Part shown: piece by piece, positions 4,019 through 17,260 of the stretch
Layout: each line of letters starts with the position of its first letter
Numbering within the stretch: the stretch's first letter is position 1
Virus record (IMG/VR): IMGVR_UViG_3300006789_000154
Location: 1 to 24,226 of that record
Length of the DNA stretch: 24,226 bases
Origin: a virus
Strand: one strand, 5' to 3'
Notes under the pieces: model-generated
What the model saw: the letters and a program-made list of their open reading frames with translations, nothing else
What the model was told of the DNA's origin: nothing
Databases searched by the model: none
Translations under genes and position numbers: made by a program

Positions 4019-4588
4019 ATGGCATACGACCCGACACACGAATATGAGCATAGCTATTACTCTTCAATCGAAGCTCGCAAGCTGGCTAATGCCGCTCACA
4101 CTAAGCGCGTAAACTGGATCGCCACTGATGATCGCGCCCAAGAGATCATCGATTTCTTGGTTAACTACAGCCCAGAAGACGAAGGTTTTTTCCCAGCCGT
4201 TAAAAAAGGTATCAACACATACGGCCAACCCACACCCAATATGCGTAACGCTATGGTCAAGGTGCTGGACAAACGTGCCGCACAAGCCGCTGAGTGGGCT
4301 ACCAGAGATGGCAAGTGTGAGTTTGTTGGCACAGTGGGCAAGCGTCAGGCTTTCACAGTCACAGTGAAGCATATCGTGGATCTGGAAGGCATCTATGGCA
4401 TATCACACCTTCATATCTGCCGTGATGCTGATGACAACGTCATCATCTACAAAGGCACACAATACTGGGGCAAAGGCGCTCAAGTGACTTTCATGGCAAA
4501 AGTCAAAGAGCATGGCGTCCGTGATGGATTAAAGCAAACCATCATCCAGCGCCCCACAAAAGTAAAAGTAAATGGGGAAGATTACTAA
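4019..4588 (+). CDS. Conserved phage protein, probable OB-fold C-terminal domain
   Basis: A 189-aa protein. The N-terminal half is helical (HTKRVNWIATDDRAQEIIDFL, then VKKGINTYGQPTPNMRNAM). The C-terminal half is a run of beta strands (FTVTVKHI, SHLHICRDADDNVIIYKGT, AQVTFMAKVKEH, KQTIIQRP). The strand pattern ending in G-x-K-Q-T-I-x-x-R-P-T-K recalls small OB-fold domains seen in many phage and actinobacterial hypothetical proteins, so single-stranded nucleic acid binding is a reasonable guess. The N-terminal helices may form a DNA-related module; this is not established. It has its own promoter block and heads a three-gene unit with the two small ORFs that follow. Confidence 0.65.
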   Translation: MAYDPTHEYEHSYYSSIEARKLANAAHTKRVNWIATDDRAQEIIDFLVNYSPEDEGFFPAVKKGINTYGQPTPNMRNAMVKVLDKRAAQAAEWATRDGKCEFVGTVGKRQAFTVTVKHIVDLEGIYGISHLHICRDADDNVIIYKGTQYWGKGAQVTFMAKVKEHGVRDGLKQTIIQRPTKVKVNGEDY

Positions 4589-10596: not shown

Positions 10597-10964
10597 TAAC
10601 CCATACCACCTAACGCGCCCATCTGAGCCTCTGCTTGGGGGGCTTGTGCTTGGGGCTGGGACATTGCGCCGTCAGAATCAATCGCTTGAATGAGAGAACG
10701 CAGCTCTGGCAGTAACATTATTAATGCCTCTGCTGCTTCTGGCGTTATGGCTCTGTCTAGCATAGCTAATTGCTCTTCTGTCATAGAACCAAGTCGAGCG
10801 ACTAGAACTGCCGCAATCTTTTCAGATGGCCTTTTGATGTTTTCTTGCGCCATTGCAACTGTTTCGTTGTCAATGTTAGGAGCCTCACCTTGGCCTTGTC
10901 GCATGTTAGCCCCTTCCATGTCTGGCATGGGTGGGCGATCCATTCTATTCATTTCTTCTGCCAT
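10596..10964 (-). CDS. Conserved small virion-operon protein (122 aa)
   Basis: Met/Pro/Asp-rich N-terminus (MNRMDRPPMPDMEGANM), a helical core (PSEKIAAVLVARLGSMTEEQLAMLDRAITPEAAEALIMLLP), and a low-complexity Gln/Ala/Met/Gly tail (SQPQAQAPQAEAQMGALGGMG). I recall proteins of this shape in uncultured marine phages next to the acetyltransferase and core-protein genes, but no function is known. A scaffold, chaperone or small internal protein would fit the composition. Its ATG has AGAGGGAAAAG upstream. Its stop overlaps the acetyltransferase start. Confidence 0.6.
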   Translation of the reverse strand: MAEEMNRMDRPPMPDMEGANMRQGQGEAPNIDNETVAMAQENIKRPSEKIAAVLVARLGSMTEEQLAMLDRAITPEAAEALIMLLPELRSLIQAIDSDGAMSQPQAQAPQAEAQMGALGGMG

Positions 10965-14582: not shown

Positions 14583-15197
14583 CTACTTCACCCACTCATA
14601 TACTGTTTTAGTTTCTTTTATACGATGATCTAGACCTGTATATCCGCCGTTAATTCTCTTAGTCAGACGTTTGATTGCATCATCATTAACACCCTCATCA
14701 CAGATTTTCCATAGGTTGTTTGCCTTGAAGAACCAAATGGCTGTATCCATTGCGTAATCTTCTTCTAGAAGAGATGGATCTGTTAATACCTCTGGCCTAC
14801 CCATATCACTCGCAAAGGCTTTTACGTTGTTATATCCTGTCAATTGAATAAATCCTCGCCCTATGTAGAGACTGGCTTTTTCTTTTGTATCATTACCCAT
14901 TCTCCCAAAGTATACGTTTTCAGCTAATGCCTTTGGATTTCGTGCGTAAGGCTCTGCACTTTCTTTTGTGGGGAAGCGGCTAGGCCACACACGCATCATG
15001 GATTCCACAGAATAGTTTAAGTTTTCTCTCACAAAACGAAATGTGCCTGATTCATGTATTACTTGGCCAAGCAAGTGCGAGCCACGTTCTGGAGACAGGT
15101 CATAATGCTTTACAATACTCCGCGCTGTGTTGGGGCCAAATGCTCCATCTGGGCTACACCCACACTTTTCTTGCAGTAGCTTTAATGCATTACTCAT
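14583..15197 (-). CDS. Endolysin: GH19 (chitinase-like) muramidase with short peptidoglycan-binding-like N-terminus
   Basis: A 204-aa lysis enzyme expected to cleave the glycan of host peptidoglycan. The first 30 residues (LLQEKCGCSPDGAFGPNTARSI) have the pattern of a short PG-binding-1 motif. The GH19-like domain shows GQVIHESGTFRFVRENLNYS with Glu49 as likely catalytic acid and Glu58 in the ENLNYS segment. Then come YFGRMGND, the substrate-groove motif GRGFIQLTGYNNV, and FFKANNLW. The length is normal for phage GH19 lysins. There is no signal peptide or SAR segment, so it needs a holin; candidates lie immediately upstream in the same operon (65-aa, 128-aa and 112-aa membrane proteins). Confidence 0.9.
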   Translation of the reverse strand: MSNALKLLQEKCGCSPDGAFGPNTARSIVKHYDLSPERGSHLLGQVIHESGTFRFVRENLNYSVESMMRVWPSRFPTKESAEPYARNPKALAENVYFGRMGNDTKEKASLYIGRGFIQLTGYNNVKAFASDMGRPEVLTDPSLLEEDYAMDTAIWFFKANNLWKICDEGVNDDAIKRLTKRINGGYTGLDHRIKETKTVYEWVK

Positions 15198-15199
15198 TT

Positions 15200-15538
15200 C
15201 TATTTACCCTTCATGTTCATCATACCGTTGTGATCTCGGTTGATGTATTTCAGATCATTTTCAAGCAGCGCTATCCGTTGTTTGATCGAATTGATCTGAC
15301 TGATACTCATCATCATGCCGGATAGATCGTCCCAAATATCCTCAATTTCCCCGGCGTTAGACTTAACATCTCGTTTTAAATTGACGTTGTCCTCAATTGC
15401 CATGCGAGACCCAAGCTGACTAACGGTTTCTTCGAGGCTCGATATTGTTGACGCTTGCTGTGAAACCCACCAGACGCCACCAGCAAGCTGCGCACCCATT
15501 GCTGCAACCAATGCTACTGGTAGTTTGAGATTTTCCAT
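15200..15538 (-). CDS. Membrane-anchored coiled-coil protein of the lysis cassette (112 aa)
   Basis: One N-terminal transmembrane helix (LPVALVAAMGAQLAGGVWWV, about 5-24) is followed by a long predicted coiled coil (about 26-105). This is the topology of an i-spanin or of a holin regulator, but no partner o-spanin lipobox is seen beside it. The ATG at 15538 overlaps the upstream TGA (TGATG) and has GAGGG 5 bases ahead; the GTG one codon earlier would sit too close to that ribosome binding site. It lies between the 3TM holin and the endolysin. Confidence 0.6.
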   Translation of the reverse strand: MENLKLPVALVAAMGAQLAGGVWWVSQQASTISSLEETVSQLGSRMAIEDNVNLKRDVKSNAGEIEDIWDDLSGMMMSISQINSIKQRIALLENDLKYINRDHNGMMNMKGK

Positions 15539-15924
15539 CACCGCCCTCTTTTGAACAAAGCGGTTGCGCCTCGCACACCAAAGCTGGCGCTAATCGCCAA
15601 ACCTAAACTATAAAAATACCAATCTGGCGCTTTGTTAAGCTGCTCAAACCCACGATCAACCCAGCCTTCAGCACCCGGAATCCAGCAAAGAACCAATGGA
15701 ATCGACAGGATAATCACGAACCATTCATCTTTCCAGCTAGACCTAGATCCTTCCGCCATAATGCGTTCCCAATCGGCAACGCTTGTCTTTTCTGACAACA
15801 ATATTTGTGCTTTTGCCTTGGCCTCGGTTAGCTTTAACTCTGCATTCGCAGCGTTCTTATCCGCTTTGCCTTGCAGCCAGCTTCCTGCTAAATTAGCGAC
15901 TGGGCCTATCAGTGCCTGTAACAT
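15538..15924 (-). CDS. Holin of the GTA-type 3TM family
   Basis: A 128-aa protein matching my memory of the 3TM holin family known from gene transfer agents. An Ala/Lys/Glu-rich amphipathic N-terminal part (NAANAELKLTEAKAKAQILL) precedes the hallmark SRSSWKDEWFVIILSIPLVL and a membrane segment to about residue 88. Then comes the PDWYFYSLGLAISASFGVRG membrane segment and a basic end (FKRGR). It should form the lesion that lets the endolysin out through the inner membrane. The ATG overlaps the upstream TAA. Adjacent genes also encode small membrane proteins, so the primary holin is not certain. Confidence 0.82.
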   Translation of the reverse strand: MLQALIGPVANLAGSWLQGKADKNAANAELKLTEAKAKAQILLSEKTSVADWERIMAEGSRSSWKDEWFVIILSIPLVLCWIPGAEGWVDRGFEQLNKAPDWYFYSLGLAISASFGVRGATALFKRGR

Positions 15925-16121
15925 TACTTAGACTCCTTACCCATCCAGATCCCAAAACTTCCTGTAAAAGCACCAGTGACAACTGATATTAAACCCGCCT
16001 GAGATACTGATAAATCTGGCTGTGACAGCGCCCATTCAAGGCAGCGAATATACATAATAGTTGTCACTAGCATCATTAATCTTGGTAGAATTTTCCAATC
16101 ATCAAGAATTGTATTTGGCAT
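15924..16121 (-). CDS. Small two-helix membrane protein, holin-like (65 aa)
   Basis: Begins MPNTILDDWKILPRLMMLVT. Two hydrophobic segments are visible (about 11-32 and 42-61), joined by a polar turn (ALSQPDLSVSQ), with a short charged end GKESK. This is class II holin topology. The ATG at 16121 has GGAG about 9 bases upstream. It is directly followed by the 3TM holin gene. It could be a second holin, an antiholin or another lysis-timing component. Confidence 0.7.
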   Translation of the reverse strand: MPNTILDDWKILPRLMMLVTTIMYIRCLEWALSQPDLSVSQAGLISVVTGAFTGSFGIWMGKESK

Positions 16122-16221
16122 AGCAATGCTCCGCTACTCGTTTATCTTTGGTTATTATAACAACTTTTCCCCATTTGTCATATACAACATATTTTCCACT
16201 TTTATTCTGTTGTAACCTCAA
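16102..16221 (-). CDS. Possible hidden small ORF (39 aa, TTG start)
   Basis: An open frame fills the only sizeable gap of the lysis block and overlaps both neighbours by 20 bp. The visible sequence SGKYVVYDKWGKVVIITKDK, then RVAEHCYAKYNS, has a convincing beta-hairpin-plus-helix character and good alternation of hydrophobic and charged residues. It has no ATG; the best start is the TTG at 16221, since a TAG lies four codons upstream of it. No good ribosome binding site is seen, so translation may depend on coupling to the upstream gene. The function is unknown. Confidence 0.35.
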   Translation of the reverse strand: MRLQQNKSGKYVVYDKWGKVVIITKDKRVAEHCYAKYNS

Positions 16222-16366
16222 AACAATAAACCGCTATTGTGCTGCTCGTAACCAAAACTTTTGCATCATCCGAAGCCTTCTGACACGCCTCACGCGTTTG
16301 AAATTGACCTAGCTCATAATGTTCGAGCGTTCCATTCGTAAACATAAACCAGACTAAAATCCACAT
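16202..16366 (-). CDS. Small exported or membrane-tethered protein with a Cys pair (54 aa)
   Basis: Starts MWILVWFMFTNGTLEHYELG: a short very hydrophobic N-terminus, then a polar domain with two cysteines (Cys34 and Cys48, in EACQKASD and AVYCFEV). They could form a disulfide if the domain is periplasmic. The ATG at 16366 overlaps the TGA of the preceding gene; longer in-frame versions would lie wholly inside that gene and are rejected. I recall small phage proteins of this shape (hydrophobic start, GT-LEHY, two Cys), all of unknown function. By position it may take part in lysis or superinfection exclusion. Confidence 0.6.
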   Translation of the reverse strand: MWILVWFMFTNGTLEHYELGQFQTREACQKASDDAKVLVTSSTIAVYCFEVTTE

Positions 16367-16836
16367 CAGTAATTTCCGTTTCTTTCGTTGTACAAATACA
16401 ACACAAACACTAAAGATGCCAAACCACCGAGCAGCAGAAGCCCGATAATAATACCATTGAGACAATTATCAAAGAACTCTTGTTTTTTATACACCAGATC
16501 TCGCTGAATCTTTCGCTGCTCGGCCTCCATTTTTACTATTTCCTGCCAAGAACTTGGTCCATAGTGCCAACTGATGTAATTTTTCAATTCCTCACGCATC
16601 TCCTTCGCTTTTTGTTTATGCGCCCATAGCTCAATAGCGTCAGTCTGGGTGTTCGAGAACATCTTATAGGCTGGAGGTTTTCGCGCCCGTTCTTCCATAT
16701 AGTCTAAATCGCTAATAGCCTTAGACCACTGACCCACAGTGCCAGCCATGCCCGAAATATCACGGCCCACATCTATAGCCTTCTTGATACCCTGATAGGC
16801 TGCTGTGGCGGCAGCGATTGCGCTAACAGGGTCCAC
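16366..16836 (-). CDS. Conserved phage protein with C-terminal membrane helix (156 aa, GTG start)
   Basis: Starts with GTG at 16836, giving (M)DPVSAIAAATAAYQGIKKA. I recall this N-terminus from marine and cyanophage small proteins in the lysis or tail-fibre region. The middle is a long charged helical region (residues about 45-125, KEMREELKNYISWHYGPSSW). The C-terminus has one strong membrane helix (CLNGIIIGLLLLGGLASLVF, about 130-150) and a short NERNGNY end. An ATG further upstream would overlap the previous gene by over 90 bp and add an implausible Trp/Cys-rich leader, so the GTG just after the preceding TGA is preferred. A role in lysis timing is inferred only. Confidence 0.6.
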   Translation of the reverse strand: MDPVSAIAAATAAYQGIKKAIDVGRDISGMAGTVGQWSKAISDLDYMEERARKPPAYKMFSNTQTDAIELWAHKQKAKEMREELKNYISWHYGPSSWQEIVKMEAEQRKIQRDLVYKKQEFFDNCLNGIIIGLLLLGGLASLVFVLYLYNERNGNY

Positions 16837-16840
16837 TTCA

Positions 16841-17035
16841 TCAACCCATCTTAGTAAGCACAGCCACCAAAAGCGCAATGATGGAACCTGTAGCAGCCAA
16901 CATGATTGACTCCATACGTTTAACGCGACCAAACAAATCCTTAAACTGGATTTTTACTTCAGTCTTTATGGCAATGACTTCTTTTTCCAAGCCATCAATC
17001 CTTTCATGCGCGGACGCTACAGTTCTTTTATCCAT
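16841..17035 (-). CDS. Tail-anchored small protein, XhlA/holin-like (64 aa)
   Basis: An N-terminal amphipathic coiled-coil helix (HERIDGLEKEVIAIKTEVKI, then FKDLFGRVKRMES) leads into one C-terminal membrane helix (IMLAATGSIIALLVAVLTKMG). This is the layout of XhlA-type holin-associated proteins and of several phage membrane-anchored lysis regulators. It sits between the small chaperone-like gene after the tail fibre and the 156-aa C-tail-anchored protein, so two consecutive genes have a cytoplasmic helix plus C-terminal anchor and could interact. The function is inferred. Confidence 0.6.
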   Translation of the reverse strand: MDKRTVASAHERIDGLEKEVIAIKTEVKIQFKDLFGRVKRMESIMLAATGSIIALLVAVLTKMG

Positions 17036-17047
17036 TATTCAGTATTC

Positions 17048-17260
17048 CTAGTTTACGACTTCAGCCTCAAATGATGTAGCCAGCATTTTTACAAAAGCCT
17101 GCTTACCAACATGTAGTTGATCCAAATTAAATTGTGCAGAGCCTATCTTGCGCTCAAGGTCTTTGATATGATTTATCATAACTTTTTGCTGATCCGTCAG
17201 TTCTTCTTCAGTATAGTTTTTATTGTTGATCGTAATGGATTTTGTTTGTTTCTCAGCCAT
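17048..17260 (-). CDS. Small conserved phage protein, DUF6447-like (70 aa)
   Basis: Pattern KSITINNKNYTEEELTDQQK, then a long helix (MINHIKDLERKIGSAQFNLDQLHVGKQAFVKML). The short ITINxKxYxxxELxDQ hairpin followed by a coiled coil matches my memory of the DUF6447 family, which often lies next to phage tail-fibre genes. A perfect AAGGAGAT lies 5 bases before the ATG, one of the strongest ribosome binding sites in the window, so the protein is probably abundant. A fibre-assembly helper is a guess from position. Confidence 0.6.
   Translation of the reverse strand: MAEKQTKSITINNKNYTEEELTDQQKVMINHIKDLERKIGSAQFNLDQLHVGKQAFVKMLATSFEAEVVN

Follow-up and report, generated by a model that had tools for sequence, protein, structure and literature searches.

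We analyzed the lysis genes of a marine phage represented by the IMG/VR virus record IMGVR_UViG_3300006789_000154, whose full length of 24,226 bases is referred to here as the window. The nearest named relatives by DNA were the Roseobacter phages CRP-901 and CRP-902 (77% identity over 59% and 44%, respectively, of a 4 kb query), which are phages of the CHAB-I-5 lineage. The paper describing them, in the part available to us, does not mention the terms holin, spanin or endolysin (PMC10149686). The late genes of the window were found on the minus strand in the order fibre, p70, p64, p156, p54, a 39-amino-acid (39-aa) open reading frame (ORF), p65, p128, p112, endolysin and a structural gene matching phrog_3287. 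The ORFs of the cassette overlap or almost abut, with the sole exception of the 80 bases separating p54 from p65, which the 39-aa ORF fills.

Table 1 Genes of the lysis cassette in the window and its soluble neighbour. TM, transmembrane segment; Cys, cysteine.
Gene	Coordinates	Strand	Description
p70	17048..17260	-	Soluble neighbour between fibre and cassette; phrog_21153, E=2.4e-17
p64	16841..17035	-	Putatively tail-anchored, short cytoplasmic coil (slot A); N-in charge bias
p156	16366..16836	-	GTG start; helical, predicted C-terminal TM; phrog_32327, E=2e-14
p54	16202..16366	-	Small predicted ββαβ protein, two invariant Cys; phrog_3766, E=6.4e-6
39-aa ORF	16102..16221	-	TTG start, soluble; relative of CRP-901 gp44
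p65	15924..16121	-	Predicted two-helix hairpin, proposed holin (2TM slot); phrog_10198, E=1e-7
p128	15538..15924	-	Holin-like with 2-3 predicted TM, occupant of the 3TM/u-spanin slot; phrog_2524, E=1.4e-31
p112	15200..15538	-	N-anchored (predicted N-in/C-out) coiled-coil, i-spanin-like
endolysin	14583..15197	-	GH19-type, no signal sequence; phrog_181 endolysin, E=6.7e-45

All ORFs listed in the initial annotation were confirmed on the minus strand, where they are flanked by the fibre and phrog_3287 genes. Purifying selection was apparent in seven of the eight genes tested against 3-14 relatives each, with median ratios of non-synonymous to synonymous substitution (dN/dS) of 0.07 for p64, 0.09 for p156, 0.19 for p54, 0.045 for p65, 0.05 for p128, 0.10 for the endolysin and 0.18 for p70; no usable pair was obtained for p112 among the relatives compared. 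The annotation had described at least six membrane-linked proteins. Using a best 19-residue Kyte-Doolittle mean of ≥1.5, counted over family members, as the membrane criterion, we found credible membrane segments at the family level in five: p64 (40/40 members), p156 (199/201), p128 (154/188), p65 (87/109) and p112 (99/120). The sixth, p54, did not belong among them, with 0/100 members. When the window sequences were compared with 2000 composition shuffles, only p64 and p156 clearly exceeded them, with 28 and 0 shuffles as hydrophobic, respectively. The corresponding numbers were 111 for p128, 269 for p112 and 988 for p65; because this contrast is weak, the membrane assignment of these three proteins is based on family and topology and not on the single sequence.

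Cassettes of relatives were then compared. Loci were fetched with lysis-gene baits, taking at most the 80 best per scan, so the frequencies below should not be read as those of the population; this bias matters less for exclusivity. Loci sharing an identical ORF of ≥250 aa were merged into independent groups, and loci with short flanks were dropped. This left 156 cassettes with an endolysin and ≥3.2 kb upstream (from 315 groups) and 162 cassettes with a 2TM gene and an endolysin (from 451 loci). The whole set was not conserved: the full GH19 set, p64-p156-p54-p65-p128-Ncoil-endolysin (Ncoil, an N-anchored coiled-coil protein), was found in only 3 of the 156 independent cassettes. What is conserved is a core of slots, namely a two-helix protein, a 3TM/u-spanin slot and an endolysin, each filled from alternative families that never co-occurred. 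In the 156 cassettes, p65 was present in 92 and an EF-hand 2TM family (EF2TM) in 56; p128 in 119 and GTA_holin_3TM (PF11351, GTA3TM) in 23; GH19 endolysins in 69 and M15 endolysins in 82. The same was true of slot A, with p64 in 25 and an N-anchored 77-aa family (sA77) in 45. On a tree of p156, at least 19 exchanges between p65 and EF2TM, 8 between p128 and GTA3TM, 16 between p64 and sA77 and 29 between GH19 and M15 were required; trees of such short proteins are rough, and these counts are minima on those trees, possibly inflated by tree error. Profile comparison gave no clear kinship between p65 and EF2TM or between p64 and sA77, and known homology therefore does not account for their mutual exclusion. 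Both kinds of gene, 2TM and 3TM, were present in 139 of the 156 cassettes and in 28 of 34 GH19-baited groups (counted before a third 3TM family was recognised), and the 2TM gene preceded the 3TM gene in 240 of 248 pairs.

The core of the window consists of a proposed holin (p65), a holin-like protein (p128) and an endolysin. In p65, compared here with class II (2TM, N-in/C-in) holins, two hydrophobic segments (means 1.37 and 1.41) were seen, and the main TM is more positive on its C-side in 118 of 130 members. The full relative of p65 in phage HMO-2011 (L087; record 46026-46217) is annotated only by its C-terminal part, the 37-aa gp57 (4029-4142). In p128, one TM is strong and another weaker, and the N-terminus is hydrophobic; two to three TM are therefore predicted. 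Membership of p128 in PF11351 was rejected, since none of 15 members matched at E≤0.5 while other occupants of the slot did match (E=1.2e-23). A weak profile kinship was nevertheless detected (hhalign probability 37; the GTA3TM model matches a p128 gene at E=1.5e-4). The endolysin appears to be a cytoplasmic GH19-type enzyme, scoring 23.5 bits against Pfam Glyco_hydro_19, just below the cut-off of 25.5. Inside some cassettes, genes that we take to encode Staphylococcal-nuclease-like proteins were found (21 matches, including L029:4892-5281 and L044:5592-5996).

In related phages, a different protein can take the place of the 3TM gene. A lipoprotein search of whole isolate genomes uncovered a unimolecular spanin (u-spanin) in CRP-345, flanked by the EF-hand 2TM and M15 endolysin genes and named 'spanin2 family protein' in GenBank. 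Proteins of this kind, absent from the window, have a lipobox and a C-terminal TM and match the Rz-like spanin family phrog_1804 weakly (3/3). A scan with it, taking the best 80 of 427 relatives, gave 44 independent groups from 82 matches; a 2TM gene was present in 43 and an M15 endolysin in 42, while p128 and GTA3TM were absent from all 44. The 2TM gene is thus common to both types of cassette (43/44 u-spanin and 53/53 p128-baited groups). When the 162 cassettes were first pooled, 127 contained a 3TM gene, 25 a u-spanin, none both and 10 neither (Fisher p=1.2e-21). In all 10 cassettes with neither, the p128 slot after the 2TM gene was found to be filled by a third membrane family, roughly 153 aa long (p153, phrog_6637; L253:6240-6698, L060:5178-5636 and eight others). 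With p153 included, every one of the 162 cassettes has exactly one occupant: p128 in 109, GTA3TM in 18, p153 in 10 and u-spanin in 25, with none having both and none having neither. Separately, the PF11351-type locus L473 also matches the p153 model (E=1.9e-4).

The same pattern was seen beyond the cassettes. Among 50 records of 21-57 kb, u-spanin was present in all 14 spanin records but in none of the 36 3TM records, and p128, GTA3TM and p153 were absent from all 14 (Fisher p=1.1e-12, the records having been chosen by what they carry). Among complete isolates, CRP-1, CRP-9 and CRP-345 carry the u-spanin but lack p128, while the reverse holds for CRP-901, CRP-13 and HMO-2011. On trees, to which the caveats given above for short proteins also apply, the two states cluster strongly, yet at least 6 (M15), 5 (p65), 9 (p156) and 1 (EF2TM) switches between 3TM and u-spanin are required; such repeated switching suggests that the rule is not the accident of one lineage. 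No statement of this exclusion was found in the open-access literature searched.

We also searched for other spanins. When scanned for a lipobox, 24 of the 25 u-spanin cassettes were positive, compared with 6 of the 137 3TM cassettes, where no match was convincing; the antisense control gave 32 ORFs. The window cassette has no lipobox ORF in any frame, and the idea of an embedded Rz1 was rejected; the only lipobox match in the whole window comes from an ORF at 10690 on the plus strand, which runs antisense to a gene. The whole genome of CRP-13 has no ATG-started lipobox ORF, and that of CRP-901 has two doubtful ones. In five annotated 3TM phages that are not part of the cassette set, ZRG1, QDWS535, ParMal1, MEP301 and PA11, no lipobox ORF was found within 5.4-6.4 kb around the 3TM gene. 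Table 10 of a spanin survey lists PA11, RC-2014, phiSboM-AG3, SFP10, SJ2 and AD45-P1 as spanin-less (PMC6139136), and at least these six listed phages carry a relative of p128 or GTA3TM. This comparison used 60 of 333 matching records and covers only spanin-less phages. According to the survey, about 13% of the genomes had no recognisable spanin, and their route through the outer membrane is an open question (PMC6139136).

Based on these observations, we propose that the window holds a lysis cassette with no recognisable spanin in which p128 may make a spanin dispensable, a proposal whose chances we regard as evenly balanced. In this model, p65, as the common holin, and p128, as a second holin-class protein, would permeabilise the inner membrane, and the endolysin would escape and degrade the wall. 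The 3TM-slot protein would then supply, or make unnecessary, the outer-membrane step that is given to the u-spanin in related phages; this last step is inferred from the mutual exclusion of the two. The initial annotation had suggested that an extra member of the block replaces a missing o-spanin (outer-membrane spanin). Replacement of the spanin by some member gained support, and the member pointed to by the exclusion is p128 rather than the i-spanin-like (inner-membrane spanin-like) p112. Extending the idea to the whole 3TM group (p128, PF11351 and p153) as a holin-class spanin substitute that carries lysis through the outer membrane is more tentative. TeaA of phage ICP1, a GTA_holin_3TM protein, collapsed the proton motive force and lysed cells when expressed alone (PMC7182436).

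Several points weigh against this proposal. The TeaA study also found lysis of V. cholerae by T4 T-holin on its own (PMC7182436), so lysis by a single protein is not special to the 3TM group. GTA3TM proteins have their more positive side before the main TM in 35/35, which fits N-out/C-in, and p128 is ambiguous; the charge pattern suggests that the long helix is cytoplasmic, with no evident periplasmic arm to the outer membrane. The exclusion itself indicates equivalence or incompatibility and not which function is shared. All 25 u-spanin cassettes have an M15 endolysin and none a GH19 enzyme (p=5e-6), and the u-spanin set came from one similarity-ranked scan, so lineage contributes to the exclusion. 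In EF2TM cassettes, the u-spanin usually lies after the endolysin and not in the 3TM position. One record, the only such one, has GTA3TM (174-572) at one end and a partial p128 (38173-38430) at the other (G029/L274), possibly because a circular genome was opened within the cassette. For CRP-1 and CRP-9, the absence of GTA3TM and p153 is based on tblastn only, among the matches listed.

Two other explanations of the missing spanin were considered. The 3TM protein could be only a holin and p112 an i-spanin whose o-spanin is unlinked or has an odd lipobox, in which case these phages would not be truly spanin-less. The charge bias of p112 predicts N-in/C-out (type II) topology in 117 of 123 members, which would place its coil in the periplasm, and weak matches to Rz-like spanins were found (phrog_739 in 5/15 members, phrog_214 in 4/15). 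Moreover, N-coil proteins are enriched with 3TM genes (59 of 137 3TM cassettes vs 2 of 25 u-spanin cassettes, p=0.0006). However, an N-coil gene was not found within the 2.5 kb examined in the other 78 3TM cassettes, and p112 gave only 8 full and 4 partial matches in the 36 3TM records. CRP-345 holds p112 and a u-spanin together, and the lack of an ATG-started lipobox ORF in the CRP-13 genome also argues against this reading. As a general spanin replacement, p112 was rejected, being missing from most 3TM records, although its predicted topology is i-spanin-like; this explanation as a whole appears somewhat unlikely. Alternatively, a fragile host envelope might need no outer-membrane disruptor, leaving the choice between 3TM and u-spanin to historical chance, as has been proposed for the envelopes of marine cyanobacteria infected by spanin-less phages (PMC6139136). 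The u-spanin phages CRP-1 and CRP-9 and the 3TM phage CRP-13 name the same host strain, FZCC0023, which disfavours a host that simply needs no spanin. The rule also persists over several switches, and chance loss predicts some cassettes with both or neither, of which there were 0 in 162. We consider this explanation very unlikely.

The remaining genes, p112, p64, p156, p54 and the 39-aa ORF, are proposed to be exchangeable accessories. The term lysis block, used in the initial annotation, fits the core p65-p128-endolysin; p156 and p112 can sit far from lysis genes in CRP-13 and CRP-345, and for this reason may not be lysis genes. In both phages they travel as a pair at 25-28 kb, with the endolysin at 49-53 kb. 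Accordingly, p64, p156 and p112 could be membrane-linked proteins for assembly, entry or exclusion encoded in the same late operon, a good possibility although short of even. In PA11, a protein with an N-anchored coil that is encoded beside p128 carries a virion structural annotation, and p156 occurs with 3TM and u-spanin alike, neither p156 nor p54 differing in frequency between the two types. Against this, p156 is the commonest accessory in endolysin cassettes (125 of 156), albeit in loci fetched with lysis baits. The p156 model has a mean predicted local distance difference test score (pLDDT) of 72, and a fold search found no match in the PDB at E≤0.001. A further suggestion, made in the initial annotation, was that the extra members set lysis timing, as antiholins do, or block superinfection. 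p64 has an N-in charge bias in 30 of 38 members and the opposite bias in none, and p64 and sA77, which never co-occur, each appear to have a short cytoplasmic coil next to a single TM, as would be expected for one regulatory role. However, profile searches matched no known family of antiholins or exclusion proteins, and p54, apparently soluble, maps to the replication region in three isolates; this suggestion is doubtful.

p54 had been described as an exported protein with a Cys pair. The pair is real, both Cys being invariant in 16/16 sequences, but export was unsupported: only 3 of 100 members have a hydrophobic segment even at a 19-residue mean of 1.2. Structure prediction (mean pLDDT 89) gave a compact ββαβ domain (strand-strand-helix-strand) that begins at residue 2, and its first strand accounts for the supposed export signal. 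p54 is thus predicted to be a small soluble domain that is not exported, and an exported or spanin-like role was rejected on both grounds. Foldseek found no match in the PDB at E≤0.001, the best VIA Z was 5.0, for a common arrangement, and the comparison with Pfam DUF1482 gave 13.8 bits, below the cut-off of 25. A likeness to the small phage inhibitors Dmd and p56 was not counted as evidence. In the bait-biased lysis loci, p54 was found in 72 of 156 cassettes, always together with p156. It was also found in 4 of 9 isolate records searched, away from lysis genes in all four: in a plus-strand region beside thymidylate synthase in CRP-13, CRP-4 and CRP-345, and beside the portal gene in CRP-3. 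These locations indicate that p54 is not tied to lysis. Small four-Cys proteins with a layout like that of p54 were also noted in CRP-13 (gp67, L086) and CRP-4 (gp30, L084). The 39-aa ORF was absent from the initial list; its kinship with CRP-901 gp44 was found by hidden Markov model (E=1.2e-22). It has a VV.DK.GK..IIT core, and its family is present in 80 of 156 cassettes.

In CRP-901 (L081), the GenBank names 'methyl-accepting chemotaxis sensory transducer' for gp41 (p112) and 'peptidase' for gp45 (p156) look unsupported. In HMO-2011 (L087), the p156 relative and the lysis genes are immediately preceded by a methanesulfonate monooxygenase alpha-subunit gene (1726-2808). In 5 of 156 cassettes (for example L004:4333-5267), an exported 142-aa coiled-coil protein and an N-anchored 169-aa protein take the place of missing p156 and N-coil genes, possibly forming a two-part envelope bridge with no lipobox. 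In CRP-4 (L084:4982-5425) and CRP-7 (L089:1142-1588), a 147-aa three-TM protein adjoins p156 and N-coil proteins in a region where no endolysin was recognised.

Each part of the cassette belongs to a known kind. CRP-901 has p65, p128, p112 and the endolysin in the same order as the window, but p54 is absent and slot A is exchanged. The SAR116 phage HMO-2011 has p128, p65 and a lysozyme, with a different endolysin and a 3TM-first order. In PBSX, XhlA, XhlB and XlyA are a single-TM coil protein, a two-helix holin and an endolysin, a set like that of the window; p64 differs from XhlA in having no Pfam XhlA match (none in 8 members). p112 resembles lambda Rz in predicted topology, but the o-spanin lipoprotein corresponding to Rz1 was not found in the window cassette. 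The unimolecular spanin of the T1 gp11 type is the alternative occupant of the cassette, whereas p128 lacks a lipobox and any evident periplasmic domain. GTA_holin_3TM proteins, which include TeaA and, as cited in papers, rcc00556, occupy the same slot and are similar in length to p128, which differs in lacking a PF11351 match. For TeaA, an inner-membrane lesion on expression has been reported (PMC7182436), whereas p128 is known here from sequence. For rcc00556, the holin of the gene transfer agent RcGTA, a 2012 paper states that direct evidence of lysis had yet to be presented (PMC3423380).

If the wider proposal on the 3TM group is true, it would explain the way in which many published 'spanin-less' phages, and perhaps gene transfer agents, exit their hosts. 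The strict either-or between 3TM and u-spanin in phages of one host strain provides both a candidate and matched isolates.

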